Of a stretch of 64,000 nucleotides of DNA, positions 12,204 through 43,180 are shown piece by piece. The position numbers were made by a program, and so were the translations under genes. The stretch spans positions 186,001 to 250,000 of the forward strand of contig NZ_JADQBZ010000003.1 in the NCBI RefSeq assembly GCF_016278365.1, in the 5' to 3' direction. Each line of letters opens with the position of its first letter. The stretch's first letter is position 1. The DNA is from Methanolobus sp. (GTDB lineage Archaea; Halobacteriota; Methanosarcinia; Methanosarcinales; Methanosarcinaceae). The notes under the pieces are model-generated. The model had not been told where the DNA came from and searched no databases. It saw only the letters and a list, made by a program, of their open reading frames with translations.

Positions 12204-12818
12204 TTACTTGTCTGACTTGTACCTGAACTCAAAACCAAGATGGCTCAATGCAAACAATGCTATCATTATTACAAAAAAGATAGACAAGACAAATGCATAG
12301 GATGCCAGCTCGTAATAAAGAAAATAGGTCCTGGCGACTTCCGAATCCAGATATGAGAATATACTGACCGGCCGGTAGAATGGATAAAAATAGTCTATTT
12401 CATATCTTGCGAGATCATCCAGCAATAGGTGCGAAATGAATGCAGATCCTGCAAATAATCCCATGTATGCTGCCTTGCTAAAATTCCTGTACGCCACATA
12501 TCCAACAAATATTCCAAACAGGATTGCAGAAGAACTGAACAGCAGGGAATGTGTCGAAACGGGGCCAATGGTACAATGTTGCATAGAACCGCCTGTTAAG
12601 ATACCGTATGCAGCCATGATATCTGGCAACAGCGCACCGCTGCCTCCTACAAACAGCAGCAATAGGATATGCATGTAATTCTTACGCGAAAGTTCTTTGC
12701 GGGAAAAAGCTCCAAGGACTGCATAAATCATAACCGCACTGATGCAAAGTACAAAGAACATAGTATGTGCAATCGGGTATGGCATGCTAATAGATAAGTG
12801 CTTGAAGCTATAAACCAT
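12204..12818 (-). CDS. DUF457/YdjM-type membrane-bound metal-dependent hydrolase
   Basis: A 204-residue polytopic membrane protein. The family motifs are present: Leu-Pro-Asp (ALLPDIMAAYG), an isolated His in the next helix (STHSLLFSS), His-Leu-Leu-Leu-Asp-Asp (HLLLDDLARYE) and the FYPFYRPV segment. The family is predicted to be metal-dependent hydrolases of the YdjM type with unknown substrate. A TATA-like element (12841-12853, minus) lies about 28 bases before the ATG at 12818, implying a leaderless transcript from this first ATG. The promoter and first 90 codons are duplicated at the start of the next gene upstream. Confidence 0.8.
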   Translation of the reverse strand: MVYSFKHLSISMPYPIAHTMFFVLCISAVMIYAVLGAFSRKELSRKNYMHILLLLFVGGSGALLPDIMAAYGILTGGSMQHCTIGPVSTHSLLFSSSAILFGIFVGYVAYRNFSKAAYMGLFAGSAFISHLLLDDLARYEIDYFYPFYRPVSIFSYLDSEVARTYFLYYELASYAFVLSIFFVIMIALFALSHLGFEFRYKSDK

Positions 12819-12881
12819 TTTTTATATTATCCATTGGGGAAATATATATTAATATGAAAGTATTGAGAATGTATTATCCAC

Positions 12882-14444
12882 TCACCTGGCCAGATGCCAC
12901 CGCCATAAAGAGATCTTGTAGACTATATAGGTCAAGGGATCAGCGAATAACGGGTTTATATTAACGTCAGTATCATGTGATCCAACATTATTGTAGTTCC
13001 CATTTTCATTGTTCCAGACAATGTTGCTTTCCAGGATGAAATTATAATTTTCGCCAAAACGGTTATTGATTCCATAACCATCATTGCTTTGGATAGGAGA
13101 ATTGACAGTATTTATAATGATATTATTCCTTACAAATGTTGTATAGGCAGCATCTTGGGTATTGGGAAATCTCTGGGCATATGCTATTCCATCTCCCATA
13201 CTGGCATCAATTATATTATTCTCAATAATAGTATTGTTCCATCCATCTAACCAGATACCTCCACCATAGGGATGCCCGGTTCTATAATTTGTACCTGACC
13301 CATAGATAATGTTGTTATGGATATGTACGTCTCTTGCACTTGTGACTGGCAGATTGTTAGCACCTCTGGCTGTGGCTAATACAATACCCATTTCGCGAGT
13401 GTCATATATTGCATTATACGCAATTGTAATATTATATGCATCAGCAGCAGAGTCCTGTTTTAATAAGTATATCCCAGAAAGTCCATAAAGTGCAGTGCTA
13501 TCTGTCCATATAGTGTTGTTTGTGACCATCATATTTGTAGAATCATCAAGCCTGATCCCACAATCATGCGCAACAAGGGGGAGTGTGTTGCCATCAACAA
13601 CATCATAATTTCCATGCTTTATAAAAATGTCATCGTGACCGGTGTCATAGATCAAGTTATTTAAAACCTTGTGATGACTTATCCCATTGTTTAATCTAAT
13701 GCCATCTCCGGGTATTTCTTTGATTACCATGTCTCTGACCGTAATATACTCTGAATAATAAAACTGGATCGCGGGGAAGGAATCAATAGCTTTCATTTCG
13801 GATATTGTATTTTGGTTATGTTTATTGCCATCTAATGTAAACCCGCTAATTGTGATGTTTGAACCCTTATTGAAATTTCCAGTAATCACTGTTGTTCCTG
13901 TAATCATTGATTTGAACACATCAGAACGTGTAACACTCCAATCCTCAATCAATTCCACAACTGCATCCGGATCACCTGTCAGTGTCATATCATCCGGAAT
14001 TTCAATACTATCGTCTATAGTGTAAGTTCCTGATTTCAGGTATACTGTGTCGAAATTATTGTTTTTTGCATATTGCAATGCTTCATTGATCTCAACCTGG
14101 TCAGCTGTCCCGTCACAGTTGAAGTTACCACTGCCATCTGTGGCCACAGTTATACTTGGCACAGACGAAGATATAGAATGCGCTGAAGCGGAGACAATAA
14201 CAGTTTGTTCCATAGAAGTATCTGTAAGGGTGTTGTGCACCGCCATATGATCTGACAACAGTGCACCGGTACCTCCTGCAAACAGCAGCAGCAGAATATG
14301 TAAATAATTCTTCTGTGAAAATCCTGTGCGAAGGAAGGCTATAAGGACTGCATAAATTACAGCCGTACTAATGCAAAGTACAAAGAACATATGTTCAATC
14401 GAGTATGGCATGTTAATAGATAAGAATTTGAAGATATAAACCAT
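12882..14444 (-). CDS. Chimeric protein: DUF457 N-terminus fused to beta-helix domain
   Basis: A 520-residue fusion. Residues 1-90 are a diverged copy of the N-terminus of the neighbouring DUF457 protein: MVYIFKFLSINMPYSIEH against MVYSFKHLSISMPYPIAH, with the membrane helix MFFVLCISTAVIYAVLIAF and the helix LHILLLLFAGGTGALL. Leu-Pro-Asp has become Leu-Ser-Asp, so hydrolase function is lost. From about residue 92 (SSSVPSITVATDGSGNFNCD) it is a right-handed parallel beta-helix almost identical to the next two proteins. The join is near 14,160-14,180. It ends early after LFADPLTYIVYKI, short of the domains seen in its paralogs. The upstream region is also copied from the DUF457 gene. Confidence 0.8.
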   Translation of the reverse strand: MVYIFKFLSINMPYSIEHMFFVLCISTAVIYAVLIAFLRTGFSQKNYLHILLLLFAGGTGALLSDHMAVHNTLTDTSMEQTVIVSASAHSISSSVPSITVATDGSGNFNCDGTADQVEINEALQYAKNNNFDTVYLKSGTYTIDDSIEIPDDMTLTGDPDAVVELIEDWSVTRSDVFKSMITGTTVITGNFNKGSNITISGFTLDGNKHNQNTISEMKAIDSFPAIQFYYSEYITVRDMVIKEIPGDGIRLNNGISHHKVLNNLIYDTGHDDIFIKHGNYDVVDGNTLPLVAHDCGIRLDDSTNMMVTNNTIWTDSTALYGLSGIYLLKQDSAADAYNITIAYNAIYDTREMGIVLATARGANNLPVTSARDVHIHNNIIYGSGTNYRTGHPYGGGIWLDGWNNTIIENNIIDASMGDGIAYAQRFPNTQDAAYTTFVRNNIIINTVNSPIQSNDGYGINNRFGENYNFILESNIVWNNENGNYNNVGSHDTDVNINPLFADPLTYIVYKISLWRWHLAR

Positions 14445-14516
14445 TTATTATATTATCTTCGGGGAGTATATATATTAACAAAAAGACAATAAAAAAAGTG
14501 GCGCACTATATGCGCC

Positions 14517-17084
14517 TTAGTTTACAATTTCGCCGAAGTGGTTTACCACAATAGAAACATCCTGGAGGTCCACAATCCCGTCCTGGTTGACGTCCCATCG
14601 TGGAAGAGATGTTGTGGATACCGGACCACTATTCTGACATATCAGATCGATGTCCTGAATATCTACAACCCCGTCCTCGTTTACATCCCATATCGGGTGA
14701 ACGTCGGTTACCGAAACGGCGTGGGAACTGGTAACAGTGTTCACACTGTCGCTCACAGTGACCTCAATGACATGTGACCCTGCGGATGCATAGTCAAGGT
14801 ACCATTCATAGCTTGTGGAAGTGCTTACCTCTGTACCATCTATTGTAATAGAGTAGCTGAGTTCGTCACCTTCAGCGTCGACAGCTTCCACGTTGATATT
14901 GACAGTGCTTCCCTCTTCGAATACTGCAGCATCTACAGGCTCGAAGAGAGTGATTATTGGTGCACGGCTGGCAGGTTCTGTGTTGTCAGACACTGTGCTG
15001 TCAATGTTCAGTTGTGGCCTCTGGTCCTGGCCATCCCAGTCAGAGCTGTAGAAGGCTATGTAATTATTGTTCTCATCCCGTGCTTTCAGGAAAAAGCCGG
15101 TATTTTCGTATTCTCCACTTACATAGTCCTGAACAAGTTCTGTGATATCAAACTCATAATGTCTGTTATCAGGCATATCACCGGCTTTGAAGGTTATTGA
15201 TGCATAAGGTTCATCGCCCTGAGCTACACCGTTCTTGTCGAACCAGTCTCCACCCGGATTGTCCCATGGAGTATTTGCGTCTTTGTTATTCCAGCTTACA
15301 TACGCCGGGTTCCAGTCGGCCGGCCTGTATATCTCTACTATCGTATCACTGCCTCTTGCTGTGTTTGAAGGATAGTACCAGTCCAGGGAAAGTGTTGCAT
15401 TGGTAATCGTATCAGTTGCGTTATATTCGCTCAGGTCGAACCACATAACATCCCTGTAACTGCCTACACCACCAAGATTTCCGATGTCAACAAAACTGCT
15501 TTCTCCAAGATTAGCATTTGGAGAAGCTTCTCGTAGTCTGTTGTCGTATACCAATCGATCCTCGGGAACTATAATTGGCTCATCCGAAGGGCTCCGGGAT
15601 GCTTCAGCGGTATTGCCATATCGTCCGATATTGATCCTGTTACCGTTTGGTGCAGGTTCCTGACTGTAATCGGACTTCGGACTTCCCGCATCTATTGCTG
15701 GACTAGTTACTGTGTCAAATACCCAGCTATTGCCAGTCCACCGGCCTGCAGCACTTTTCAGGCTGTAATCCTGGTTTGAGGGATCTGCGAAGAGTGGGTC
15801 TACATTGATATCAGTACCATGTGAACCAACATTCCCATAGTTCCCTTTGACATTGTTCCAGACAAGATTGTTTTCCAGGACGAACTTATAGTTACTGCCA
15901 AGGCGGTTGTTAATACCATAGCCATCATTGGTCAGGACAGGAGAATCAACAGTGTTTGTGACAATGTTATTCCTCACAATTGTTGTATAGGTAGCACTTT
16001 GGGTATTGGCGAACCTCTGCCCATATGCTATTCCATCTCCCATACTGCCGTCAACCACATTATTTTCGATGATGACATTGCTCCATCCGTCAAGCCATAT
16101 TCCTCCGCCATAGGGATATCCGGTCCTGTAATTGGTACCTGCACCATGGATAGTGTTGTGATGTATATGTACGTCTCTTGCACTTGTGGCTGGCAGATTG
16201 TTAGCACCTGCGCCTATTGCTAATACAATACCCATTTCGCGAGTGTCATATATTGTATTATATGCAATTGTTATATTGTACATATCACGAGTTGGAAGGT
16301 TATGCTTAAGCAGGTATATGCCGGAGCATCCGTAAAGCGCATTTTTATCTGTCCACATGGTATTGTTTGTAACCATCGTGTTTGTAGCATCATCAAGCCT
16401 GATCCCACAATCGTGCGCAACACGGGTAAGTGTGTTACCATCGATGACATCATAATTCCCATATTTTATGAAAATATCATCATGACCGGTATCATGGATC
16501 GTGTTGTTCAGGATCTGATGGTGGCTTTTTCCACCGTTGAGTCTGATACCGTCTCCAGCTATATTCCTGATCATCATATCTTTGATGGTGATATATTCCG
16601 AATTATAGAACTGGATCGCCGGGAAGGAATCTACTTCCTTCATTGCTGTTATTACATCTTGATTGTACTTGTTACCGTCTAATGTGAATCCACTAATTGT
16701 AATTTCTGAACTGGCTATAGTTGCTCCTGTGATCATTGGTGTGAACATATCAGAACGTGTAACGTCCCAGTTCGCAATGAGTTTCACAGTTGCATCCGAA
16801 TCGCCTGTCAGTGTCATACCATCCGGAATCTTAATACTATCGTCTATAGTGTAAGTTCCTGATTTCAGGTATACTGCACCGAAATTATTGTTCTTTGCAT
16901 ATACTAATGCCTTATTAATTTCAATTTGGTCAGCTGTCCCGTCACAGTTGAAGTTACCACTGCCATCTGTGGCCACAGTTATACTTGGCACAGATGAAGA
17001 AGAACCTTGGGCAGCAGGAATGCTAATACAGATTAGCAGACATAACCCTATCATTACGTTTTTTTTTAGTACGTTTTTATTCAT
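14517..17084 (-). CDS. Secreted beta-helix / DNRLRE / Ig-like / dockerin protein
   Basis: An 855-residue modular surface protein. A signal peptide (VMIGLCLLICISIPAAQG) is followed by a right-handed beta-helix (about 30-470) with many NNTI/NNIV turns, then a disaggregatase-related DNRLRE domain (about 508-700: VYDNRLREASPNANLGESSF through YIAFYSSDWDGQDQRPQLNI), an Ig/cadherin-like domain (VDAAVFEEGSTVNINVEA), and two dockerin-type calcium repeats from residue 797 (WDVNEDGVVDIQD and WDVNQDGIVDLQD). It may bind or cut surface polysaccharide such as methanochondroitin. AAGGTGG precedes the ATG. No cohesin partner is seen in this window. Confidence 0.85.
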   Translation of the reverse strand: MNKNVLKKNVMIGLCLLICISIPAAQGSSSSVPSITVATDGSGNFNCDGTADQIEINKALVYAKNNNFGAVYLKSGTYTIDDSIKIPDGMTLTGDSDATVKLIANWDVTRSDMFTPMITGATIASSEITISGFTLDGNKYNQDVITAMKEVDSFPAIQFYNSEYITIKDMMIRNIAGDGIRLNGGKSHHQILNNTIHDTGHDDIFIKYGNYDVIDGNTLTRVAHDCGIRLDDATNTMVTNNTMWTDKNALYGCSGIYLLKHNLPTRDMYNITIAYNTIYDTREMGIVLAIGAGANNLPATSARDVHIHHNTIHGAGTNYRTGYPYGGGIWLDGWSNVIIENNVVDGSMGDGIAYGQRFANTQSATYTTIVRNNIVTNTVDSPVLTNDGYGINNRLGSNYKFVLENNLVWNNVKGNYGNVGSHGTDINVDPLFADPSNQDYSLKSAAGRWTGNSWVFDTVTSPAIDAGSPKSDYSQEPAPNGNRINIGRYGNTAEASRSPSDEPIIVPEDRLVYDNRLREASPNANLGESSFVDIGNLGGVGSYRDVMWFDLSEYNATDTITNATLSLDWYYPSNTARGSDTIVEIYRPADWNPAYVSWNNKDANTPWDNPGGDWFDKNGVAQGDEPYASITFKAGDMPDNRHYEFDITELVQDYVSGEYENTGFFLKARDENNNYIAFYSSDWDGQDQRPQLNIDSTVSDNTEPASRAPIITLFEPVDAAVFEEGSTVNINVEAVDAEGDELSYSITIDGTEVSTSTSYEWYLDYASAGSHVIEVTVSDSVNTVTSSHAVSVTDVHPIWDVNEDGVVDIQDIDLICQNSGPVSTTSLPRWDVNQDGIVDLQDVSIVVNHFGEIVN

Positions 17085-17521
17085 AAAACCACCTTATAGA
17101 TGACTATTTAGTACTTTTTGTAGTCATCAGGATTTGCTTATAGAATTCATTATATATATAATGTAGTATATACTGTCTAATATTTATGGCACATATGGGA
17201 ATATTATGTTCATAATATCGACTTTTTGAGACAAGAACATATTAATATATTCTCAGTAAGTCAGTTTCTTATAAAAATATGATATGCAATCATGTATTGA
17301 TACGTTATAATTAAGTTCAAGCAGTAACTATGCATGTTTCTTGAACCGGTGATATTTGAATCAGGAAGGCTTTGTCCAGCAGAGAAATGGATGAACGGGC
17401 GTTTCCCTTCTTTCGTGAAAATGGAGAGATCAGGGCGGAATACATTAGGATATATAAAAGACGATTCAACTGAAATAATATGCACAACCCGGCATTCATG
17501 CCAGGGTTGTTTCTGATCAGG
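17085..17521. other. AT-rich intergenic region
   Basis: About 440 bases upstream of the 855-residue gene. The part nearest the gene (17,100-17,260) is very AT-rich and should carry its promoter. Two short overlapping frames on opposite strands at 17,261-17,530 show no recognisable features; I leave them uncalled. Confidence 0.4.
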
Positions 17522-17579
17522 ATTGTTCAAGCCAGAGCTGTAGAAGGCTATGTACTTGTTGCTCTCATTTAGGGTGACA
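17522..17579 (-). pseudogene. Remnant of a DNRLRE domain
   Basis: The stretch around 17,529-17,568 (CAGAGCTGTAGAAGGCTATG and what follows) nearly repeats the DNA at 15,042-15,076 that encodes YIAFYSSDWDG of the DNRLRE domain in the neighbouring gene. It leads straight into DNA matching the Ig-like region. The frame is interrupted by the stop of the 602-residue gene. It looks like the scar left when most of a DNRLRE module was deleted from this copy. Confidence 0.55.
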
Positions 17580-19388
17580 TCAAGCTACCGAAACGTTATG
17601 GGAACTGGTGACAGTGTTCACACCGTCGCTCACAGTAACCTCAATGACATGTGACCCTGCGGATGCATAGTCAAGGTACCATTCGTAGCTTGTGGAAGTG
17701 CTTACCTCTGTGCCATCTATTGTAATAGAGTAGCTGAGTTCGTCGCCTTCAGCATCGACCGCTCCCACGCTGATATTGACAGTGCTTCCCTCTTCTAATA
17801 CTGCAGCTTCTACAGGCTCGAAGATAGTGATTATTGGAGCTCGGTTATCGTCCACTAAAGATGGTTTATCCGAAGCACTTTTGGATGCTTCAGTAGCGTT
17901 ACTGTATTGGTCAACGTTAATGCTGTCACCGTTTGGTTCAGATCCATTAATGGAATCTGATGCCGGATTTCCGTCTTCAGTGAGTGGATTTGTCATCGAA
18001 CTCATTAAGCGGAAATCATGGTTTGAGGGATCTACGAAGAGTGGGTCTTCGTTAATGTCAGTATCAGATGATTGAACATTATTGTAGTTCCCATTTATAT
18101 TGTTCCAGATAACGTTGTTTTCCAGGACGAACTTATAGTTACTGCCAAGGCGGTTGTTGATGCCAAAACCGTCATTGTTCAGGACAGGTGAATCAACAGT
18201 GTTTGTGATGATGTTATTCCTCACAATTGTTGTATAGGTAGCACTTTGAGTATTGGCGAATCTCTGCCCATATGCTATTCCATCTCCCATACTTCCATCT
18301 ATCACATTATTTTCGATGATGACATTGCTCCATCCGTCAAGCCATATTCCTCCACCATAGGGATATCCGGTCCTGTAATTTGTACCTGCACCATGAATGG
18401 TATTGTTGTATATATGTACGTCTCTTGCATATGTAGTTGGCAGATTATTAGCATCTTTGGCTATGGCCAGTACAATGCCCATCTCGCGTGTGTCGTATAT
18501 TGTATTATATGCGATTGTGATGTTGTATGACTCGAGCTGATTGGCATGCTTAAGCAGGTATATGCCGGAGCATCCGTAAAGCGCATTTTTGTCTGTCTGG
18601 ATGGAGTTGTTTGTAACCATCGTGTTTGCGCAATTATCAAGCCTTATACCACAGTCAGCAGCGACGCGGGATAGTGTATTACCATCGATGGTAACATGAT
18701 TCTCGGATTTTAGGAAAATGTCATCATGACCGGTATCATGGATCGTATTATTCAGGATCTTGTGGTGTCCTTTTCCACCATGGATCTTGACACCGTCTCC
18801 TGCTATATCCCGAATTACCATGTCCTTTACCGTAATGCGCTCAGAACTGAAGAATTGGATTGCGGGGAAGGAATCGACTTCTTTCATGGCTATGATGGCG
18901 TTCTGATCATATCTGTTGCCGTTTATCGTGAATCCGCTTATCGTAATGTCTGAACTGGCTGTAGTTGCTCCTGTGATCATCGGTGTCAACATATCAGAAC
19001 GGGTAACACGCCATCCTTTGACCAGTTCCACAGTCGCATCCGAATCGCCTGTCAGTGTCATACCATCCGGGACTCTAATACTATCGTCTATAGTATAAGT
19101 TCCTGATTTAATGTATACTGTGTCGAAATTATTGTTTTTTGCATATTGTAATGCTTCATTAATTTCAACCTGGTCAGCTATTCCATCGCAATTGTAGTCG
19201 CCACTGCCATCTATGGCTACATAAATGACCGGTACTGATGAAATGGTGTTGTCTTTGGAAACGCTTACTGTGTTGTTATTCTCTTCACCGGCGGTGGTGT
19301 CGGCCGCTGAAGCAATTGCTGTTCCCAGACTTAAGCCAAGGAGCAGACATATCATTAAAAAGCTGGGGATTTTTCTTCTATAAACCAT
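17580..19388 (-). CDS. Secreted beta-helix protein with Ig-like domain
   Basis: A 602-residue paralog of the 855-residue protein. It has its own signal peptide (FLMICLLLGLSLGTAIASAA), then the same right-handed beta-helix (about 50-470), a short Ser/Asn-rich linker and the Ig-like domain (EPVEAAVLEEGSTVNISVGA to VTSSHNVSVA), where it stops. The DNRLRE module is missing between helix and Ig domain, and the dockerin is missing at the end. GAGAGG lies upstream of the ATG. An extracellular role on surface polysaccharide is likely by family; no catalytic residues can be assigned. Confidence 0.85.
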   Translation of the reverse strand: MVYRRKIPSFLMICLLLGLSLGTAIASAADTTAGEENNNTVSVSKDNTISSVPVIYVAIDGSGDYNCDGIADQVEINEALQYAKNNNFDTVYIKSGTYTIDDSIRVPDGMTLTGDSDATVELVKGWRVTRSDMLTPMITGATTASSDITISGFTINGNRYDQNAIIAMKEVDSFPAIQFFSSERITVKDMVIRDIAGDGVKIHGGKGHHKILNNTIHDTGHDDIFLKSENHVTIDGNTLSRVAADCGIRLDNCANTMVTNNSIQTDKNALYGCSGIYLLKHANQLESYNITIAYNTIYDTREMGIVLAIAKDANNLPTTYARDVHIYNNTIHGAGTNYRTGYPYGGGIWLDGWSNVIIENNVIDGSMGDGIAYGQRFANTQSATYTTIVRNNIITNTVDSPVLNNDGFGINNRLGSNYKFVLENNVIWNNINGNYNNVQSSDTDINEDPLFVDPSNHDFRLMSSMTNPLTEDGNPASDSINGSEPNGDSINVDQYSNATEASKSASDKPSLVDDNRAPIITIFEPVEAAVLEEGSTVNISVGAVDAEGDELSYSITIDGTEVSTSTSYEWYLDYASAGSHVIEVTVSDGVNTVTSSHNVSVA

Positions 19389-28232: not shown

Positions 28233-29258
28233 TTAATATAAATGCTTGAAAAGTATTTCGCTAACTGGTTTATACATTTTAATCGGCATTTCTCTAAAAA
28301 CCTGTCTTCCCAATTTATACTTTAAGTTATCACGATTCATAATTGATGAAGTAGGGATATTTGGATAGTAACTATAGCATATTTCAGTCTCAACAGCTCC
28401 CCATCTTTCTTTGAAAGCAATCAATCCTTTATTGTCATATGATGAACGCCCAAAATTGTAGTATTTATAGTTATTTACACATGCATCTTCGATACTTTTC
28501 CAAACAATTAAATTATTAGGGCGCAGATCAAGATAACCGGGATTGCAAGCGGCATATCCGAAAGTAACAGTATCTTTAAAATACTGAAAAACCCCTCCTG
28601 CAATAATCTCATTGTTATATTTTACAACATAAAGAATAACATATTCATCCATCAACTCAAACAAATTTTCAAAAAATTTCCATGGATGACATGGGACGCC
28701 AATCTTTTTTTTAGTAATGCAATTTAACTCGCAAAATTCTTTCAGATCTTCCAGGCTTTTAGTAGAATAAACAGAGAGGCCATTCTTGATTGGTTTTTTA
28801 GTTGAACTTCTAGTACCCCTACTTATTTTTTGCCAGACTTCATTAGGATCTGAGGATAATTCAACGGTATGTGCACAAAATGAATTTTGAAACTGGAATT
28901 TATCATGATTTACTTTATCTCTGATCTCAAACCGATCAGCATTTAATTTATGATATAGATTTATCCCCTCGTCTAACAAATCCTTTTTTGCAGACTCTGA
29001 ACCAATACAACTGCTATTGTAGGAGAATGGGACTGTGCAAAGTTCATTGCCTCTTAATTTGCTTCTAACATAGAATGAAGCTAACAACCCTATAATATTC
29101 TCACTTTCATCTTTTGCAAATAGATATTTGGATTTATATCCAAAGGTTTTTTCCAAAAATGTTTTCCATTCGGGAGTGTGGTAAATAGTCGCATCATCAC
29201 ATGTGTATAGAAATTTTTCCCATGCTTCTTCTGTAACATTCTCTATTATTTCTATCAT
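28233..29258 (-). CDS. FemAB/GNAT-like aminoacyl or acyl transferase
   Basis: A 341-residue protein with the FemAB-type double GNAT fold. Visible are TIYHTPEWKTFLEKTFGYKS at the N-terminus, SRGTRSSTKKPIKNGLSVY in the middle, IAGGVFQYFKDTVTFGYAA and the final YKYYNFGRSSYDNKGLIAFKE, which is the family's 'GLxxFKxxW' tail. Bacterial relatives transfer amino acids from tRNA to peptidoglycan precursors or modify exported polysaccharide. Methanogens of this group have no murein, so a surface glycan acceptor is plausible. Its ATG overlaps the deacetylase TGA as ATGA. Confidence 0.75.
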   Translation of the reverse strand: MIEIIENVTEEAWEKFLYTCDDATIYHTPEWKTFLEKTFGYKSKYLFAKDESENIIGLLASFYVRSKLRGNELCTVPFSYNSSCIGSESAKKDLLDEGINLYHKLNADRFEIRDKVNHDKFQFQNSFCAHTVELSSDPNEVWQKISRGTRSSTKKPIKNGLSVYSTKSLEDLKEFCELNCITKKKIGVPCHPWKFFENLFELMDEYVILYVVKYNNEIIAGGVFQYFKDTVTFGYAACNPGYLDLRPNNLIVWKSIEDACVNNYKYYNFGRSSYDNKGLIAFKERWGAVETEICYSYYPNIPTSSIMNRDNLKYKLGRQVFREMPIKMYKPVSEILFKHLY

Positions 29259-31479: not shown

Positions 31480-32724
31480 TCAAGCTATACTCTTATTATA
31501 ATTGAGCTCCAATCCTGTTTGCTTCGACAGGACGTTTTTTGAATCTACGATATTTGGATTTTTCATCATATGATACAAATCATCAGGGTTCATTTCCCGA
31601 AACTCCGAATGATCCGTCAGCACAACAATACAATCACTTCCCTTAACAGCCTCTTCCAGGCTCAAAATAGGATACTCGAACTCCTTAACAAATGGATCAT
31701 AGATCCTGATAGTAAACCCTTCCTTCTCTGCCAGTTTGATGAATTTCAGCGCAGGAGTTGCTCTTGTATCTGCAATATCTCCCTTATAGGCCACCCCAAA
31801 GACAGTGATCACAGGGTTCTCTATACCGTTGACAAGATCTTTAACTTTCTTTAAAACATGGATAGGCATGGAGTCGTTGATATTGCGGGCTAAAGTTATC
31901 AGACTACTATCGCTTGTGTTTTCAGTAAGGAACCAGGGGTCAATAGCTATACAATGTCCACCTACTCCAGGGCCAGGTTTGTGGATGTTTACCCTGGGAT
32001 GCTTGTTTGCTATCTCTATAGCTTCCCATATGTTGATGTCGTAGTCCTCGGCGAGCATTGAAAGCTCATTAGCAAGAGCGATGTTCACATCACGGTAGGT
32101 GTTCTCCATGAGCTTGATCATCTCTGCTGTGGTGCTGGTTGTGAGATAGAGGTTGCCTTTAACAAAACTGGAGTACAGATCACGGGTGAGTTCGGTGGCC
32201 TTCTCATCAAGGCCGCCGATAACCCTGTCGTTGTTGACCATCTCATGCAGAGTATTACCGGGGATAGCACGCTCTGGGCAGTGGGATATGTAGAAGTCCT
32301 GTGATGCTTTCAGGCCGGATCGTTCCAGTATTCTTCTGACCCTTTTCTCGCAGGTCTTGGGCGGGATGGTGGACTCAATGATAACAATGTTACCTTTCTC
32401 CAAATGGGGGATTATCATCTCGCAGGCGGAAACCACGTATTTCAGATCAGCCATACGGAGCTCTGCATCAAAAGGGGTGGGAACAGCTACAAGAAAAACG
32501 TCAGCTTTCTCTACTTTTGTGCTTGCTCTGAAGCTTTCCTTTTTGCATGCCCCATCTAAGAGTTCCTGAAAACCTTTCTCTTCAAAAGGCATCTTGCAGT
32601 CTTTAAGGGTATTTACAACTCTTTCGTTGATGTCCACTCCAACAACATCCATTCCATTGTTTGCAAACAGGAGTGCAGTAGGAAGGCCAATGTAGCCCAA
32701 TCCCAGAACACATAATTTTATCAT
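31480..32724 (-). CDS. wecC: UDP-N-acetyl-D-mannosamine dehydrogenase
   Basis: NAD-dependent nucleotide-sugar 6-dehydrogenase of 414 residues that oxidises UDP-ManNAc to UDP-ManNAcA. The Rossmann start MIKLCVLGLGYIGLPTALLF, VPTPFDAELRMADL, the catalytic-region PGPGVGGHCIAIDPWFL with its Cys, and VFGVAYKGDIADTRATP all match the family. I use the ATG at 32724, preceded by AGGTGC; a longer in-frame start at 32778 would overlap wecB. It lies 34 bases after wecB, as expected for a two-step pathway. Confidence 0.93.
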   Translation of the reverse strand: MIKLCVLGLGYIGLPTALLFANNGMDVVGVDINERVVNTLKDCKMPFEEKGFQELLDGACKKESFRASTKVEKADVFLVAVPTPFDAELRMADLKYVVSACEMIIPHLEKGNIVIIESTIPPKTCEKRVRRILERSGLKASQDFYISHCPERAIPGNTLHEMVNNDRVIGGLDEKATELTRDLYSSFVKGNLYLTTSTTAEMIKLMENTYRDVNIALANELSMLAEDYDINIWEAIEIANKHPRVNIHKPGPGVGGHCIAIDPWFLTENTSDSSLITLARNINDSMPIHVLKKVKDLVNGIENPVITVFGVAYKGDIADTRATPALKFIKLAEKEGFTIRIYDPFVKEFEYPILSLEEAVKGSDCIVVLTDHSEFREMNPDDLYHMMKNPNIVDSKNVLSKQTGLELNYNKSIA

Positions 32725-32758
32725 GGTAGCACCTATCGTCTTTATATTTGTAGATTTG

Positions 32759-33829
32759 TCAACCAAGGATCTTGTCAATTATCAATTCGGCTGCGTTTCC
32801 CCTGCCATAGGGATTATTCCAGCTTGTTGCAGAGTCTGTCATTTCCTTTGCAAGTTGTGTTATATTGCTGTTCACTCCGGCTATGACATTAGCTCCCACA
32901 TCAACTGTTTCAGGCCTCTCAGTATTGTCCCTTAAAGTGATGCAAGGCACACCAAGGATGCATCCTTCTTCCTGCAATCCTCCGCTATCAGTGAGTATCA
33001 GCTTTGCATCACCTTCAAGCTGCAGGAAATCCAGATATCCGATTGGTTCGATCAATTTTGTACCATCTGGAATCTTCAGGTCAAATTCCCGTATCTTCTT
33101 TACAGTTCGCGGATGGGCAGGGAAAATAATTGGCAGGCTGAACGCCTGATATATTTGTTCAAAGCCAGTAAGTATACTTGAAAGACGTTCTTTTTTATCC
33201 GTGTTCTCTGCCCTGTGAACAGTTGTCAGGAAATATTCGTCTTTTTTCATATTTAGTTCAGACAGAGTATGTCTGGTTTCTTTTGATATCTCCAGATTCT
33301 GATAAATGGCATCAACAACAGTGTTGCCTGTAACGAAGATCTTTTCTTCGGGGATACCTTCGGCAAGAAGATACTTTTTTGAATGCTCAGTGGGCGCAAA
33401 CAGATAATCTGAAATATGATCCGCAACGATTCTGTTGATCTCTTCAGGCATGCTTCGGTCAAAGCTTCTCAGGCCAGCTTCCACATGACCTATCATGACA
33501 TGCAGTTTGGAGGCGGCTAACGCACCGGCAAGGACAGTATTGGTATCGCCCTGGACAAATACTACATCAGGAGTATCCTGTATTAGTATTTTCTCGATGC
33601 CTGATATCATCTTTGCAGTCTGTTCACCATGTAAACCTGAACCAACATCAAGATTGTACTTCGGCACAGGCAGTTTCAGGTCATTAAAAAATACTTTGTC
33701 CATCTCGAAGGAATAGTGCTGGCCTGTATGCAATATATAGTAGTCAATACCCCGATTCTCACATTCTCTGATAAGCGGGCTCATTTTAATGATCTCGGGA
33801 CGGGTTCCAAGGATGATTGCAATCTTCAT
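32759..33829 (-). CDS. wecB: UDP-N-acetylglucosamine 2-epimerase (non-hydrolysing)
   Basis: A 356-residue enzyme converting UDP-GlcNAc to UDP-ManNAc. It starts MKIAIILGTRPEIIKMSPLI and has VFVQGDTNTVLAGALAASKL, GHVEAGLRSFDRSMPEEINR and LTDSGGLQEEGCILGVPCIT, the diagnostic signatures. With wecC it supplies UDP-ManNAcA for the glycan made by this cluster. It is probably the first gene of the main cluster, as an AT-rich region of 250 bases separates it from the acyltransferase upstream. Confidence 0.95.
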   Translation of the reverse strand: MKIAIILGTRPEIIKMSPLIRECENRGIDYYILHTGQHYSFEMDKVFFNDLKLPVPKYNLDVGSGLHGEQTAKMISGIEKILIQDTPDVVFVQGDTNTVLAGALAASKLHVMIGHVEAGLRSFDRSMPEEINRIVADHISDYLFAPTEHSKKYLLAEGIPEEKIFVTGNTVVDAIYQNLEISKETRHTLSELNMKKDEYFLTTVHRAENTDKKERLSSILTGFEQIYQAFSLPIIFPAHPRTVKKIREFDLKIPDGTKLIEPIGYLDFLQLEGDAKLILTDSGGLQEEGCILGVPCITLRDNTERPETVDVGANVIAGVNSNITQLAKEMTDSATSWNNPYGRGNAAELIIDKILG

Positions 33830-34083: not shown

Positions 34084-34659
34084 TTATAATTTTGAAACTG
34101 GCTTCTTGTCAAATTGAAATACCGCTTCAGCAGGATTACCCCGTGCGATGCAATTTGAAGGAATATCTTTACTTACAACTGATCCCGCTGTGACTATTGA
34201 ATTCTCCCCAATAGTGACTCCTGGTAATATCACAACACCTACAGCAATCCAAGCTCCTCTTTTAATTGTCACCGGCGATGTCTTTGTAAACATCTTCGAT
34301 ATCCTAGGATGCGTTTCACTAAAATATAAGGGAGGAGAAGTATGGACCAATATTAAGTTCCTTCCACTGAGAGCCACATCGTCTTCTATCTTTATCATAT
34401 GCGGATATACAGGGTCGATATAAACTTCAAAACCAATGAACACGTTTTTCCCAATATCAACCCCTCTGATCTTTTGGCATCGTGCTCTCATGTTTGGGGC
34501 CATCGGCAGGTATAATGCAAACATTTGGATAAAGCGGCCTAATATCGCTTTAACCAATGAGCCAAAGTCTTCTTCTTCCAATTTAGCTGTTCCCATTCCA
34601 ACTCTGATCTTTCGATAAAAATAATTACCAAAACTCATAGTACTCCATAAATAGGGCAT
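34084..34659 (-). CDS. Hexapeptide-repeat acyltransferase
   Basis: A 191-residue protein of the left-handed beta-helix (LbH) O-acyltransferase type. Hexapeptide turns such as VDIGKNVFIGFEVYI, IKRGAWIAVGVVILPGVTIG and ENSIVTAGSVVSKDIP are clear, with His109 in LVHTSPP as a candidate catalytic base. Family members acetylate sugars or serine using acyl-CoA. It belongs by position to the glycan cluster and is the gene nearest to the carrier-protein cluster on the other strand. Confidence 0.82.
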   Translation of the reverse strand: MPYLWSTMSFGNYFYRKIRVGMGTAKLEEEDFGSLVKAILGRFIQMFALYLPMAPNMRARCQKIRGVDIGKNVFIGFEVYIDPVYPHMIKIEDDVALSGRNLILVHTSPPLYFSETHPRISKMFTKTSPVTIKRGAWIAVGVVILPGVTIGENSIVTAGSVVSKDIPSNCIARGNPAEAVFQFDKKPVSKL

Positions 34660-35185: not shown

Positions 35186-35881
35186 ATGGAACCTAAAACA
35201 TTAAACATATCATCCACTGTCTCTCTTGAGGACATACCTCATTTATGGGAACAGAATGATACTCTTATCCTTGTTATAAACATTAATGATTATGGCACAC
35301 TGAGCTATGATCATCTCGACAACATCGAGAAGGAACATCTGGAAAACTTACAAACCGGATATTTCAGAAAAAGATATAATATCTCCCGAATGGTTTTGAA
35401 ATGCATCCTATGTGTTCTGCTTGAGAAGCAATCCACTTTCGATGTATCCATCTACAAAGACAAATATGGTCGGCTCCATGTGCCTGACCATGATGAATTT
35501 AACATCTGTATTTCATATACAGGAGATGTATTCTTTCTGGCTATCTCAAAGATCAAGGTTGGTATTGATGCAGAAAAATGGAAACACACATCTCTTAGAA
35601 ATGTTTCAAAGTATATGCAGATAAAAAAATTATGTGCTGATGGATGCGCAACCGACCTTATGTGTTTGACATCATGGACCCTGAAAGAAGCGTATTGCAA
35701 ATTTTCTAATCAGAGCATTTTTTCTTATCTCAATAAAGCACCAGATATTGATAATATATGCCATTCCAGCTATTTTATAAACAACAAATACATACTTACC
35801 GTTGTTACAGGTTCAGTACGGTACAAAATCAATATAAGTTTTTTTGAAAAATATTCTCACAGCAAGATTATATTTGAATAA
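35186..35881 (+). CDS. 4'-phosphopantetheinyl transferase (Sfp superfamily)
   Basis: A 231-residue enzyme that would load the phosphopantetheine arm of CoA onto a carrier protein. The two key motifs are present: VGIDAE at 125-130 (Asp128 for Mg) and W164-xx-KEA-xx-K172 (WTLKEAYCK), with Glu168 as the second metal ligand. An ISYTGD segment near 109 corresponds to the family's first motif. Length suits Sfp-type enzymes. PPTases are uncommon in archaea, and an ACP gene follows directly, so the pair is very likely functional together. The middle of the protein is quite diverged. Confidence 0.82.
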   Translation: MEPKTLNISSTVSLEDIPHLWEQNDTLILVININDYGTLSYDHLDNIEKEHLENLQTGYFRKRYNISRMVLKCILCVLLEKQSTFDVSIYKDKYGRLHVPDHDEFNICISYTGDVFFLAISKIKVGIDAEKWKHTSLRNVSKYMQIKKLCADGCATDLMCLTSWTLKEAYCKFSNQSIFSYLNKAPDIDNICHSSYFINNKYILTVVTGSVRYKINISFFEKYSHSKIIFE

Positions 35882-35982
35882 TAGTCTGTGACGTGGTCAG
35901 CTTAAAAATTGGCAGAAGGCACATATTCGGTATGTGGTAATTACTATATACTTAGATCATCACAGTCGGATGCCTAATAATT

Positions 35983-35992
35983 CTTATATATC
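35983..35992 (+). promoter_or_regulatory. Probable TATA box of the ACP operon
   Basis: CTTATATATC in the 218-base gap after the PPTase gene. Transcription would start near 36013 and run into the ACP gene at 36100, so the carrier protein and the five genes after it may form their own unit. Confidence 0.45.
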
Positions 35993-36099
35993 ATAAACCA
36001 CATTGTTTATTTCGGGAGCGAATCAGTCTGTGTTATCTACCAGTTGGCATGAGACACTAATTATTGAACTGATTCTCAAAAAGGGGATGTGGATAGCAA

Positions 36100-36354
36100 A
36101 TGGAAAAGATAAGGGACGATATAATTGACTTTTTGAAAGGCCAGTCTTTCATGGATAGTAACACTCAGTTCGCTGACAACGAATCTCTTACTAAGGCCGG
36201 AATAATAGACTCTATTGGCTTGCTAGAACTTCTGGATCACATAAGCGAGAGCTATTCAATAGAAATCCCGGAAGATATGTTAACTCCGGATAATTTAGAT
36301 TCACTGCAAGGGATTACCAATCTTATCCTCAAACTGAAATACGAGAGATCATGA
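36100..36354 (+). CDS. Acyl carrier protein
   Basis: An 84-residue acidic four-helix carrier protein. The attachment site is GIIDSIGLLELLD with Ser38 as the residue that would receive phosphopantetheine, and YSIEIPEDMLTPDNLDSLQG is helix III and its loop. Length is typical for a free-standing ACP/PCP. AAGGGGATGTGG stands upstream of the ATG. The stop overlaps the ligase start as ATGA, giving tight coupling with the enzyme likely to load it. Confidence 0.88.
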   Translation: MEKIRDDIIDFLKGQSFMDSNTQFADNESLTKAGIIDSIGLLELLDHISESYSIEIPEDMLTPDNLDSLQGITNLILKLKYERS

Positions 36355-37829
36355 GAATTGATTCTTTTGTAGCAAAAAATGCAAACGAAAACCCTCATCA
36401 GATTGCTTTGGAAGAAGGGGAAAAAACAATTTCCTACAGCTGCCTTGATAACGATATAGATAGAATCGCTTCCTCAATGGCGGAATTTGGGAATTGCAGA
36501 TTTGCAGTACTGGCGGAATCGGGCATACAGTATATTAAGATGCTCATGGCAGTTTATCGATCAGATAATACTGCAATACCCCTGCCAATAGAACTGGCGA
36601 CTTTCAATATGGAGCGAATTCTTGATACTGCCCGCATCAATAACATAATTGTAACGGAAGCGCAGTATTCAAGATTTGGCGAGGCTTTTTTCAAGCGTTT
36701 TGAAACAGTTATAGTTGTTTCGGATGATGACTCTGTAAACACTTTGTGTAAAAGGGTCATAGAGGAATATAACAATCCGAATCTTCGATTGGTGCTGTAC
36801 ACTTCCGGCACAACCGGCACACCAAAAGGTGTCATGTTGAGTGACAGGAACCTAATCGCAAACGCAGCGTCCATAATCGAGATACTTGGAATAACACCTG
36901 CTGATAAGGCTGCACTGGTCATATCGCCTCATCATGCTTTCGGTAATTCCATTATCAATTCTCACCTTATGGCCGGAGGATGTATAAGTATAGTTTCCAT
37001 GAATTTCATGGGCTTGATCTTCAGTATGATGAGATCAGGGATATCCATGTTCTATGGGGTTCCCAGTACTTACCGTCTGCTCCTCCGATATCCGGAAAAG
37101 TTCAAAGATGCTTTCAGGAACGTAAGACTTGCTGCGACTGCAGGTGGGGCCATTGATGATATCATTGTGAAGAATTTAAAGGATTCAAATCCTGATATCA
37201 GGGTGATGCCAATGTATGGTCAGACCGAGGCCACAGCCCGGCTTGCCTACCTGCCTTCAGAGGATGTGGAAGAATTTGTTGATACTATAGGAAAAGCTAT
37301 TCCCGGTGTTATCCTGGACGTGTTCGATGCAAATAACTGCTCTGCTGAACCAAACATTACAGGTGAACTGGTTGCCAGGGGCGACAATATCATGCTGGGT
37401 TATCTGGATGACGAGATTGCCACTGAGAGAAAGATCATCAATGGCTGGATGTACACTGGAGACCTTGCAAAGAAGTTACCCAATGGCTATTTCAAATTAT
37501 TGGGACGTAAGGACGATCTTATAAAAATAGGTGATCATCGTGTTAATCCAAGAGAGCTTGAAAAATATATAGAGAGCAACAATGATGTTTCCGGGGTTTT
37601 TGTTGTCCCTGTTTCCCATGAGCTTCTGGGAAATGCGATCAGTCTAATGGTGATACCTAACCACGACATGGATGCCACTTGCATTTCCTCTTTCTGCCGG
37701 AAGAATCTGCCTGGTTACCTGCATCCTTTAGAGGTACTTTTTATCGACCATCTTCCGCTAAGCGAGAACGGGAAAATATCCAATCGATCTATTATTGAGG
37801 GTTACCACAATGTCAAGAACAGTATGTAA
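36351..37829 (+). CDS. Acyl-AMP ligase (carrier-protein loading, class I adenylate-forming)
   Basis: A 492-residue ANL-superfamily enzyme. YTSGTTGTPKGVMLS (150-164) is the ATP loop, MYGQTEATARLAYL the A5 motif, GWMYTGDLAKKLPNGYFKLL plus GRKDDLIKIGDHRVNPRELE the A7/A8 hinge, and LPLSENGKISNR carries Lys475, the adenylation lysine. It should activate a carboxylic acid and pass it to the ACP encoded just before it (ATGA overlap). The substrate pocket cannot be read with confidence; small acids, fatty acids and amino acids are all possible. Confidence 0.88.
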   Translation: MRIDSFVAKNANENPHQIALEEGEKTISYSCLDNDIDRIASSMAEFGNCRFAVLAESGIQYIKMLMAVYRSDNTAIPLPIELATFNMERILDTARINNIIVTEAQYSRFGEAFFKRFETVIVVSDDDSVNTLCKRVIEEYNNPNLRLVLYTSGTTGTPKGVMLSDRNLIANAASIIEILGITPADKAALVISPHHAFGNSIINSHLMAGGCISIVSMNFMGLIFSMMRSGISMFYGVPSTYRLLLRYPEKFKDAFRNVRLAATAGGAIDDIIVKNLKDSNPDIRVMPMYGQTEATARLAYLPSEDVEEFVDTIGKAIPGVILDVFDANNCSAEPNITGELVARGDNIMLGYLDDEIATERKIINGWMYTGDLAKKLPNGYFKLLGRKDDLIKIGDHRVNPRELEKYIESNNDVSGVFVVPVSHELLGNAISLMVIPNHDMDATCISSFCRKNLPGYLHPLEVLFIDHLPLSENGKISNRSIIEGYHNVKNSM

Positions 37830-38820
37830 AAAATGCATTCTGGACTCGGATATTCCAGGAATAACTATTGATGAAGATAGCGGGTTATGCCATTTCTGTG
37901 AGATATATAAGCCATTTTCTCCGGGAGAAAAGGAAGAGTATATAGTTCGAATGGAAGAGTTATTTCAAGAGGAAAGCGGCAGAGGGAAATATGACGTGAT
38001 CTTTGCACTTTCCGGTGGCAAAGATTCTTCATACACGCTCTATGAACTTAATAAAAGATATCCTTTCCTGAAGGTAATGGCTGTTCAGTTTGATAACGGT
38101 TTCATATCTGATAATGCAATTGAGAACGCAAAAAAGATGTGTGAGATCACAGGATGCGACTATTTCAAACTGAGCATGGAAGATGAGGTACTGTACGACA
38201 TGTTCCGCAAGGCTGCAAATTCTTATGATGCATTTCCCAGGTATGCCAAATACAGAGCAAGTGACATATGTAATACCTGTATAGGCATCATTAAACAGAA
38301 ATTGATAGAACAGGCAATTGTTCATAAAGCACCTTTCATTATGTTTGCATTTACATCGGGACAAACTCCAAATCCTATTATCGACCTGTCTGCCAGTTTT
38401 ATAAAGTGGTCAAGGAATCTTTTTGTGAAACAACTTCAAAAGATAGATATCGATGATAAGGATGAGATGTTCGTTGTAAAAAAGGAAGTAATTGAAAATA
38501 TGGATAATATTGTTCCAAAGATCATACATCCTTTGTGCCTGTGGGATTATAATGAAGGTAAGATCCTGGAGAAACTGGTTGAGATCGGATGGAATCCTCC
38601 TGACATCCATGACAGTAATTCGACCAACTGTACTTTGAACTCATTTGCTTGTTACAATCATCTGCAAAAATATGGCATTCATGCTTATGCTTTTGATATC
38701 GCAGGAATTGTTCGAAGCGGTGATATGTCCCGTGAAGAGGGACTGAAAAAACTAAATCAGGAATTATGTCAGCCTCTGATATTGGATGCTGCGAAGAAAC
38801 TTAACTTAAAGGTGGAATAA
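37810..38820 (+). CDS. PP-loop ATPase, N-acetyl sugar amidotransferase-like (WbpG family)
   Basis: A 336-residue PP-loop protein. Two CxxC pairs (Cys6/Cys9 in CKKCILDSDIPGITIDE, Cys27/Cys30 in LCHFC) form a probable zinc site, followed by the ATP loop LSGGKDSS at 67-74 and YRASDICNTCIG further on. This matches WbpG-type proteins of O-antigen clusters, which with HisH/HisF-like partners form an acetamidino group on a sugar. No HisH or HisF homolog is nearby, so the nitrogen source and target differ or lie elsewhere. ATG 37810 overlaps the ligase gene by 20 bases. Confidence 0.8.
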   Translation: MSRTVCKKCILDSDIPGITIDEDSGLCHFCEIYKPFSPGEKEEYIVRMEELFQEESGRGKYDVIFALSGGKDSSYTLYELNKRYPFLKVMAVQFDNGFISDNAIENAKKMCEITGCDYFKLSMEDEVLYDMFRKAANSYDAFPRYAKYRASDICNTCIGIIKQKLIEQAIVHKAPFIMFAFTSGQTPNPIIDLSASFIKWSRNLFVKQLQKIDIDDKDEMFVVKKEVIENMDNIVPKIIHPLCLWDYNEGKILEKLVEIGWNPPDIHDSNSTNCTLNSFACYNHLQKYGIHAYAFDIAGIVRSGDMSREEGLKKLNQELCQPLILDAAKKLNLKVE

Positions 38821-38836
38821 TTAGGGGAGTAGTATT

Positions 38837-39811
38837 ATGCAAATATTAGAAGAATTGAACAAAGATATTGGCAAACTGTCTCTGGACCTCGGGGGTTTCA
38901 TAAAACAGAATGTTGCTGATTTCAGGAAGAAGGGAGTACTGTTAGGAGTCTCGGGTGGTGTTGATTCCGCAGTGACACTTACACTTTCTGTACAGGAGCT
39001 GGGTGCGGAAAATGTGTATGGGCTTCTCCTCCCTGAGAAAGAATCTGCTCCTTCCAGTACGCCTCTGGGAGCAGAGATATGTGAAAGTCTGGGCGTGCAA
39101 TATGAAGAGGTACCTATATCTCCCATACTGGAATCACTTGATATATATAATAGGAAAGACCAGGTCATAAAGCGGGCCTGTCCGGAATACGACCCGGAAG
39201 TGCACAAAACATCACTTGTATTACCTGATTTCCTGGATGGGGGATCAATGAACGTTCCATATATAAAGCTGGCAAAGGACGGTGAGGTCGTTGCACAGCA
39301 CAGGTTGAAGGCAAAGGATTATCTGGAACTCATCGGATTGCAGGGCGTTAAGCAACGGTCAAGGATGATCGTCCAGTATATGTATGCCGAGAAAATGAAC
39401 TATGCCGTTTGCGGGACGACCAACAAGACCGAAATGGTTCTGGGTCAGTTTGTAAAATATGGGGACGGAGGTGTGGATATCGAACCCCTGGCTGATTGCT
39501 ACAAGACCCAGGTCTACGCTTTGGCAAAACACCTTAATGTCAGTGAGGCGATAAGAGAAAGACCCCCAAGTCCCGATACGTGGAGCCATTACACATCCGA
39601 TCAGGATTTCTACTGGCGTATGCCCATGAATGCAATTGACCAGTTGCTTTATGCTCAGGAACACCAGCTTCCCTTGGATGTGATCAAGGAGAACACAGGG
39701 TTGCCCGAAGAGAAAATAATCAAAGCCCAGAAGCACTTTGATGTCGTCAAGAAAAACACAGAGTATATTCGTGCGGCTGCGCCGGTATTCTCTCTTAATG
39801 GCAATCACTGA
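38837..39811 (+). CDS. NAD synthase-like amide-forming enzyme
   Basis: A 324-residue member of the NadE family. SGGVDS at 39-44 is the ATP pyrophosphatase loop, GTTNKTE at 193-199 and KYGDGG at 207-212 are NadE signatures. Single-domain ammonia-dependent NadE proteins are about 250-275 residues; here about 50-70 extra residues lie between the ATP loop and the second motif (roughly 104-175). There is no glutaminase domain. The location inside a carrier-protein operon suggests a carboxylate other than nicotinate adenine dinucleotide, but true NAD synthase activity cannot be excluded. AGGGGAG precedes the ATG. Confidence 0.8.
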   Translation: MQILEELNKDIGKLSLDLGGFIKQNVADFRKKGVLLGVSGGVDSAVTLTLSVQELGAENVYGLLLPEKESAPSSTPLGAEICESLGVQYEEVPISPILESLDIYNRKDQVIKRACPEYDPEVHKTSLVLPDFLDGGSMNVPYIKLAKDGEVVAQHRLKAKDYLELIGLQGVKQRSRMIVQYMYAEKMNYAVCGTTNKTEMVLGQFVKYGDGGVDIEPLADCYKTQVYALAKHLNVSEAIRERPPSPDTWSHYTSDQDFYWRMPMNAIDQLLYAQEHQLPLDVIKENTGLPEEKIIKAQKHFDVVKKNTEYIRAAAPVFSLNGNH

Positions 39812-39813
39812 AA

Positions 39814-40554
39814 ATGCTTTTGGGTAAAGTTTTACTGGTTACCGGGGCAAGCAGGGGAATCGGGAGAGCTGCGGCCCTGATGGCAGCAGAAAACCATGCA
39901 CACGTGATCATCAATTACAATAAGAGTGAAGAACAGGCATCTGAACTGATGGATCAGTTACTTGAAAGAGGTCTTCATTCTTCGATGATCAGAGCCGATG
40001 TCTCATCCGAAGAAGATGTGAAGGCGATGTTCAAGTACATAAAGGAGGAGCACTCCCGGCTTGATGTACTTGTCAACAATGCAGGGGTTATGAAAAATAG
40101 CCTCCTGGCACTTTCAAATACAGAACTTTTCGACCAGACTATCGGCGTCAATCTTAAGGGTATGTTCCTGTGCACCAGATACGCAGCGAACATGATGAGA
40201 AAACAAAGATATGGAAGGATCATCAATCTGTCATCCACTGCAGGGCTCAATGGGGATGCCGGACAGACAGTGTATTCTGCAAACAAGGCTGCAGTTGTTG
40301 GATTTACAAGGTCCGTAGCAAAGGAACTGGGCATGTATGGGATAACGGTCAACGCCATAGCTCCTGGTCTGATTGAGACGGACCTGATAAAAGATATCAA
40401 AGCTGAGACTCGGGAGAAAATTTTATCAAATATCGCTCTTGGACGTATCGGTACGCCGGAGGATGTCGCAAAGGTGATATTGTTTTTGAGTTCGGATCTT
40501 GGGGATTATGTCAGCGGAGAAGTCATTGTGGTGGATGGCTGCCAGATAATGTGA
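39814..40554 (+). CDS. FabG-like short-chain dehydrogenase/reductase
   Basis: A 246-residue classical SDR. TGASRGIG at 10-17 is the NAD(P) loop, LVNNAG at 86-91 the structural motif, and Ser140, Tyr154 and Lys158 (YSANK) form the catalytic triad. The closing APGLIETDL and VSGEVIVVDG are typical of 3-oxoacyl-ACP reductases. Beside a carrier protein it may reduce a 3-ketoacyl-ACP to the 3-hydroxyacyl form. It begins two bases after the NadE-like gene, so it is clearly in the same operon. No ketosynthase is present. Confidence 0.88.
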   Translation: MLLGKVLLVTGASRGIGRAAALMAAENHAHVIINYNKSEEQASELMDQLLERGLHSSMIRADVSSEEDVKAMFKYIKEEHSRLDVLVNNAGVMKNSLLALSNTELFDQTIGVNLKGMFLCTRYAANMMRKQRYGRIINLSSTAGLNGDAGQTVYSANKAAVVGFTRSVAKELGMYGITVNAIAPGLIETDLIKDIKAETREKILSNIALGRIGTPEDVAKVILFLSSDLGDYVSGEVIVVDGCQIM

Positions 40555-43151: not shown

Positions 43152-43180
43152 AACTGCTGCATTTATAATAATATAATTAG

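Follow-up and report, generated by a model that had tools for sequence, protein, structure and literature searches.

What does a methanogen make with an acyl carrier protein (ACP), when such proteins are generally regarded as rare among archaea? The question is raised by a row of six genes in a 64,000-nucleotide stretch of a Methanolobus sp. genome (assembly GCF_016278365.1, contig NZ_JADQBZ010000003.1, positions 186,001 to 250,000), hereafter the window. The row encodes a 4'-phosphopantetheinyl transferase (PPTase), an ACP, an acyl-ACP ligase, a PP-loop protein, a NadE-like protein and a FabG-like short-chain dehydrogenase/reductase (SDR). We found that it belongs to a conserved archaeal carrier-protein gene set that is distributed all-or-none. 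An original prediction, made from the letters of the window, had read the six genes as one biosynthetic operon in which an acid is activated on the ACP, reduced at C3, amidated and passed on. Its description of the row was accurate: the six open reading frames lie on the forward strand at 35186-40554, with a 4-base ATGA overlap between the ACP and ligase genes, a 20-base overlap between the ligase and PP-loop genes, a 16-base gap before the NadE-like gene and a 2-base gap before the SDR gene.

Distribution and composition of the gene set

Among 186 Methanosarcinales genomes, the NadE-like family (NF002048) scored above its cut-off in 52, and the PP-loop gene was present in exactly those 52. 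The ACP was found in 49 of them and in none of the remaining genomes; the three cassette genomes without an ACP are incomplete, fragmented assemblies. The ACP count comes from a protein search with the ACP, as a PF00550 genome scan at E 0.001 missed even the ACP of the window and was not used. Because the PP-loop and NadE-like genome sets are identical and the ACP occurs in 49 of these genomes and no others, the association is far beyond chance, and the idea of a co-occurring gene set survived the check that the original prediction had proposed for it. In most Methanosarcina and several related genera, then, an ACP comes all-or-none with four or five other genes.

We sampled synteny in 17 loci of named genomes and 20 stretches of whole genomes. 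Wherever the cassette was intact in Methanosarcinaceae, the order ACP, ligase, PP-loop, NadE was kept; almost every copy had an overlap of precisely 20 bases between the ligase and PP-loop genes, and the PPTase gene usually lay a few hundred bases upstream of the ACP gene. At least two cassette copies are present in some genomes (G148, G153 and G177). The distribution is patchy, with only 3 Methanolobus genomes carrying the NadE-like gene, which was also detected above cut-off in Methanosarcina acetivorans.

Six obligatory genes, as had been proposed, were not found. The SDR gene stands directly after the NadE-like gene in Methanolobus, Methanomethylovorans, Methanococcoides and some Methanosarcina-like genomes; it is missing beside most Methanosarcina cassette copies, and a close ortholog was not found in the 7 such Methanosarcina genomes searched, which held at best SDRs of ~40% identity or none. 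We therefore rejected FabG as a core gene and regard the SDR as accessory, so that the C3 reduction, predicted as a fixed step, becomes optional. The protein itself matches PF13561 (218 bits), carries the motifs TGASRGIG, NNAG and YSANK, and reaches 265 bits against TIGR01830 (FabG), below the cut-off of 298. Instead of or besides the SDR, most Methanosarcina have a hexapeptide transferase and a DUF362 protein that carries a 2[4Fe-4S] tail. DUF362 was also considered as a pathway member and rejected; it is linked in Methanosarcina and relatives only, and this Methanolobus genome has no ortholog. In four loci the ligase or DUF362 gene is split by a frameshift or stop (L042 7433-8919, L080 6444-7797, L073 11252-12064 and L046 2-962); either decay of the cassette in some strains or assembly errors may be the cause.

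The family labels first given to the six proteins hold, with caveats for the SDR, for the PP-loop protein (below the WbuX cut-off, see below) and for the PPTase. No Pfam family matched the PPTase at E ≤ 0.001. Its motifs VGIDAE and WTLKEAYCK, which fit the patterns G[IV]D and WxxKEAxxK, are invariant or nearly so among 11 homologues; it matches AusB weakly (25.9 bits) and, by phmmer, Sfp (1qr0, 18.9 bits), and the top Foldseek matches of its low-confidence model (mean pLDDT 55) are all Sfp or AASDHPPT. The ACP scores 21.1 bits against PF00550 (cut-off 20.8) and 41 bits against AmcB; Ser38 lies in a DSIG motif, of which the DS is invariant in archaeal homologues. The ligase matches PF00501 (176 bits) and PF13193 (36 bits) and has all of the core motifs YTSGTTGTPKG, YTGD and NGK. 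Amino-acid-activating adenylation domains have, as a rule, an Asp in the A4 region. Because the corresponding region of the ligase, PHHAFGN, is without this Asp, its substrate is probably a carboxylic acid other than an alpha-amino acid.

A proposed pathway and its acceptor

We searched this Methanolobus genome for the enzymes of conventional carrier-protein assembly. No condensation domain was found, and the ketosynthase search returned only a 25-bit partial match, to a family with matches in all control genomes as well. With nothing convincing in either search, the earlier claim of a carrier-protein pathway that has neither a ketosynthase nor a condensation domain stands.

Our preferred reading, for which we judge the chances about even, is that the cassette makes an N-modified acyl group (amidated, amidino or thioamide) on the ACP for a surface polysaccharide. 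To judge from its motifs and position, the PPTase would produce holo-ACP. The ligase, given its family and its conserved coupling to the ACP, would adenylate a free carboxylic acid and load it onto Ser38. The ATP-pyrophosphatase motifs and context of the NadE-like enzyme suggest that it would adenylate a second free carboxylate, on the ACP-bound or precursor acid, and that ammonia would convert this to a primary amide. The PP-loop enzyme may activate the amide or acid with ATP and exchange oxygen for NH, giving an amidine as the sugar amidotransferases do, or for sulfur, giving a thioamide in the manner of TtuA-like enzymes. FabG-type reduction would serve as tailoring, and an LbH, GNAT or FemAB-type transferase would move the acyl group onto an amino sugar of the exopolysaccharide. 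The gene set, its all-or-none distribution, the synteny, the NadE subfamily and the bacterial AsnB parallel described below are the observed parts of this scheme.

Because the cassette lies in or beside glycan clusters in some archaea and, in several genera, beside disaggregatase-related or YdjM-like genes, its surroundings favour a surface polysaccharide as the acceptor. In Methanolobus it abuts a glycan cluster encoding a UDP-sugar dehydrogenase, a UDP-GlcNAc 2-epimerase, glycosyltransferases, a FemAB-like protein and a flippase. The cluster adjoins the cassette in the Methanolobus loci L037 and L038 too, where the dehydrogenase and epimerase are kept and the LbH protein stands in the same place at ~78% identity. 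L067 and L068, from other archaeal families of the same phylum, have the cassette inside glycan clusters beside a GNAT-like protein. Disaggregatase-related genes adjoin it in L040, L043, L047 and L077. A YdjM-like gene adjoins it in Methanosarcina, and the relative of this gene in the window (50-57% identical) lies beside three disaggregatase-related genes.

Several points weigh against a surface polysaccharide product. The typical Methanosarcina cassette lies outside glycosyltransferase clusters, one genus (g7) is without an adjoining transferase, and disaggregatase-related genes may be common in these genomes, in which case their adjacency could be due to chance. The LbH protein of the window is ~33% identical to the cassette-linked LbH of Methanosarcina and not orthologous to it. 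Single-linkage clustering had placed LbH at 16/16 loci, but the identities show two separate subfamilies, and we rejected it as a conserved partner. What persists of the suggestion that the glycan cluster offers acceptors is the glycan link, with the adjoining LbH reduced to a candidate. Taken as a whole, the original prediction kept its conserved ACP pathway, its two ATP-pyrophosphatases and its tie to surface glycans, and lost the obligation of all six genes.

It is possible, if doubtful, that the product is instead a soluble small molecule such as a compatible solute, a signal or a cofactor-like amide. This would suit an operon that stands alone in most Methanosarcina and, in its related form, in rhizobia (adjacent to minCDE in two, outside a glycan cluster), that is present in just three Methanolobus genomes, and that has a DUF362-ferredoxin protein as an extra partner. 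It fits poorly with the glycan clusters around or beside the cassette in Methanolobus, L067 and L068, and with the LbH or GNAT and the disaggregatase or YdjM neighbours.

The PP-loop protein: ammonia or sulfide

The PP-loop protein resembles the N-acetyl sugar amidotransferases (NASATs; WbpG, WbuX and LpNASAT, 8WEX) in motifs and fold. SGGKDS is invariant in 15 copies, as is a tetracysteine (C6/C9/C27/C30) with G25 that fits the pattern CXXC...[GN]XCXXC; this zinc motif and SGGxDS define NASATs (PMC10607449). Its AlphaFold model (pLDDT 88) is nearest, among solved folds searched with Foldseek, to NASAT 8wex (TM 0.69). It differs from the NASATs in scoring 105 bits against TIGR03573 (NASAT, WbuX), where the cut-off is 203, and in its neighbours: HisH and HisF occur beside several true NASATs, whereas scanning and reading of flanking genes revealed no HisH or HisF2 ammonia-donor gene. 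In trees, unlike the sugar NASATs, it clusters with PP-loop proteins whose genes are joined to those of nonribosomal peptide synthetases (NRPS) or carrier proteins. One such relative, in Streptomyces (L057 8935-11115), is a NASAT-like PP-loop-condensation fusion that follows AsnB and an adenylation-peptidyl carrier protein; another, in Roseovarius (L058 6424-14472), is a NASAT-like PP-loop domain inside an NRPS, directly before the AMP-binding C-terminal part; and in another Streptomyces a free relative stands beside an ACP and a ketosynthase. The domains joined to NRPS and condensation domains suggest tailoring of carrier-bound substrates, and because relatives are fused to or lie beside NRPS, condensation, ACP and ketosynthase genes, the cassette enzyme may likewise act on a carrier-bound substrate.

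The earlier view that ATP-dependent enzymes amidate the acid keeps its two ATP-pyrophosphatase-type enzymes, but amidation by the PP-loop protein is one option and sulfide transfer another. The protein has a second cysteine site, C154/C157/C274 (CxxC...C), like the Fe-S ligands of TtuA; at these positions E/D, T and other residues stand in many NASATs. An Fe-S cluster held there could make it a sulfur transferase that uses free sulfide to convert the amide that the NadE-like enzyme forms on the ACP to a thioamide, or an acid to a thioacid; on this view the cassette would encode a thiotemplated thioamide pathway in archaea. We consider this unlikely, though it overlaps the other readings. The site does not vary among the cassette copies checked or in the NRPS- and ACP-linked relatives, HMMER aligns the CxxC region with PCSFCGVIRRK of TtuA (6scy), TtuA structures rank after NASAT in Foldseek, and no HisH/HisF ammonia donor adjoins. 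Yet the TM of the TtuA structures is at most 0.40, against 0.69 for NASAT. The CxxC...C site looked diagnostic in our first set; when archaeal and plasmid NASATs were added as a control, it was also found in the HisH/HisF-linked proteins of L108 and L115, of which that of L115 scores above the NASAT cut-off. We rejected it as proof of sulfur transfer, because a pattern that HisH/HisF-linked proteins also carry does not separate sulfide from ammonia transfer. Likeness to the tRNA thiolation enzymes TtuA and TtcA comes down to the PP-loop core and this nondiagnostic pattern. A thioamide route would loosely resemble the thiotemplated closthioamide pathway, with its AANH thioamide synthetase acting on a carrier-bound amide.

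Phage records and viral contigs held no relatives of the PP-loop protein. Seven further Methanosarcinaceae loci (L123, L124, L125, L126, L128, L131 and L132) encode NASAT-like PP-loop proteins that have CxxC...C, and no HisH/HisF was seen there; several of these loci have a methyltransferase-like gene (by eye, of the uroporphyrinogen decarboxylase type) upstream.

The NadE-like protein in archaea and bacteria

The NadE-like protein shares with NH3-dependent NAD+ synthetase the ATP-pyrophosphatase core and the conserved amide-forming motifs. It passes NF002048, the PRK00876 subfamily (455 bits, cut-off 313), and the domain model TIGR00552 (159 bits, cut-off 64). It differs as a paralog: tree and alignment set it apart from the housekeeping NadE, which the same genome encodes separately (G000:C4:12060-12782), and it carries an insertion of ~60 residues directly before the KQRSR motif (at about residues 103-160), an altered PPSxDTWS segment and an extended C-terminus. 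In NAD synthetases a loop near the insertion point helps to bind the nicotinate ring (PMC6946656). The insertion appears to fall in this loop, which makes a substrate other than that of NAD synthetases likely, and the protein, though annotated as an NAD-making enzyme, probably is not one.

That it is an ordinary second NAD synthetase merely placed in the operon strikes us as very improbable. It does retain SGGVDS and KYGDGGVDIEPLADCYKTQV, both models that it passes are named NAD(+) synthase, and nicotinic acid adenine dinucleotide could still be its substrate, a point that counts against our preferred reading. However, a housekeeping NadE is already encoded elsewhere, the score of 195 bits falls below the PRK13980 equivalog cut-off of 255, the insertion and the altered segment are common to ACP-linked NadE proteins of rhizobia, and the gene occurs only where the PP-loop gene does. 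That unrelated metabolic genes came to stand together by chance, an idea for which we found no supporting evidence, is contradicted by the identical genome sets and conserved overlaps and can be dismissed as next to impossible.

The nearest non-archaeal relatives found for the NadE-like protein are plasmid-borne proteins of Rhizobium, Sinorhizobium, Shinella, Nitratireductor and Azospirillum, with 34-37% identity to the window protein over most of the length; that of S. medicae scores 532 bits against NF002048. The bacterial loci inspected carry a four-gene set, asnB-acp-ligase-nadE, of which Azospirillum keeps all four in shuffled order. This operon resembles the archaeal cassette in its NadE subfamily, ACP type, class I ligase and second ATP-pyrophosphatase amidotransferase, and differs in that an AsnB with a glutaminase domain replaces the PP-loop protein and neither FabG nor PPTase adjoins. 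Because the rhizobial NadE has the same ~60-residue insertion and falls under the same NCBIfam model, and the ACP is of the same type, the ACP, the ligase and this NadE are, by sequence comparison, a module that crosses domains, with AsnB in bacteria and the PP-loop protein in methanogens. In Rhizobium and S. medicae the operon lies beside minCDE, and its NadE is annotated as NAD(+) synthase.

Some parts also recall the exosortase A/PEP-CTERM exopolysaccharide systems: the window ligase scores 223 bits against the ligase model TIGR03098 (cut-off 592), and the rhizobial AsnB 443 bits against the amidotransferase model TIGR03108 (cut-off 817). The cassette differs in having no exosortase; the resemblance suggests that ACP-ligase-amidotransferase modules occur in exopolysaccharide clusters.

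Tentatively, and with more doubt than confidence, we propose that archaea and alphaproteobacteria recruited the NadE fold for amide synthases of carrier-bound acids that work with a second ATP-pyrophosphatase, and that in methanogens a thioamide or amidine acyl group decorates an exopolysaccharide by a carrier-protein pathway that has no relation to the synthesis of lipids, polyketides or nonribosomal peptides. The findings also suggest that the family NF002048/PRK00876, to which public annotation gives the name NAD(+) synthase, may largely be something else, and the match between archaea and rhizobia would make a shared chemistry approachable from two genetically tractable sides, Methanosarcina acetivorans and Sinorhizobium. 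Our literature searches returned no description of the rhizobial operon and nothing on point for the archaeal gene set, DUF362 or the closthioamide enzymes.

Table 1. Features of the cassette, its surroundings and related loci. Positions without a locus label refer to the window.
Feature	Position	Strand	Basis
Sfp-type 4'-phosphopantetheinyl transferase (PPTase)	35186..35881	+	Motifs, weak AusB match, low-confidence fold
Stand-alone acyl carrier protein, Ser38 in DSIG	36100..36354	+	PF00550, AmcB
Class I adenylate-forming acyl-ACP ligase	36351..37829	+	PF00501, PF13193, core motifs
PP-loop ATP-pyrophosphatase, NASAT-like, two cysteine sites	37810..38820	+	TIGR03573, motifs, AlphaFold
NadE-like ATP-dependent amide-forming enzyme (predicted), PRK00876 subfamily, ~60-residue insertion	38837..39811	+	NF002048
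FabG-like SDR reductase, accessory	39814..40554	+	PF13561, TIGR01830, motifs
LbH (hexapeptide) acyltransferase, candidate acceptor enzyme	34084..34659	-	PF00132
UDP-sugar dehydrogenase and UDP-GlcNAc 2-epimerase	31480..33829	-	PF03721/PF00984/PF03720, PF02350
FemAB/GNAT-type transferase, candidate acceptor enzyme	28233..29258	-	PF02388 53 bits, PF13480 38 bits
YdjM-like membrane protein and three disaggregatase-related proteins, far end of glycan island	12204..19388	-	
Rhizobial-plasmid asnB-acp-ligase-nadE operon	L054 7151-9969, L055 5143-9903, L060 5155-9876, L062 6742-11552		
Further NadE-like group	L069 8844-9815, L070 9545-10510, L071 7994-8941 (on reverse complement of loci)		

A further NadE-like group, at about 200 bits to NF002048, has members in other archaea and, as additional copies, in some Methanosarcina, with no adjoining ACP or ligase gene. 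In the glycan island of the window, the three disaggregatase-related beta-helix proteins stand in a row (12882-19388); the one at 14517-17084 matches PF06848/PF08480 and has a dockerin-like and a Big_7/PKD segment. Downstream of the cassette, at 42876-44803, lies a bacterial-type GroES/GroEL pair, as judged from sequence.

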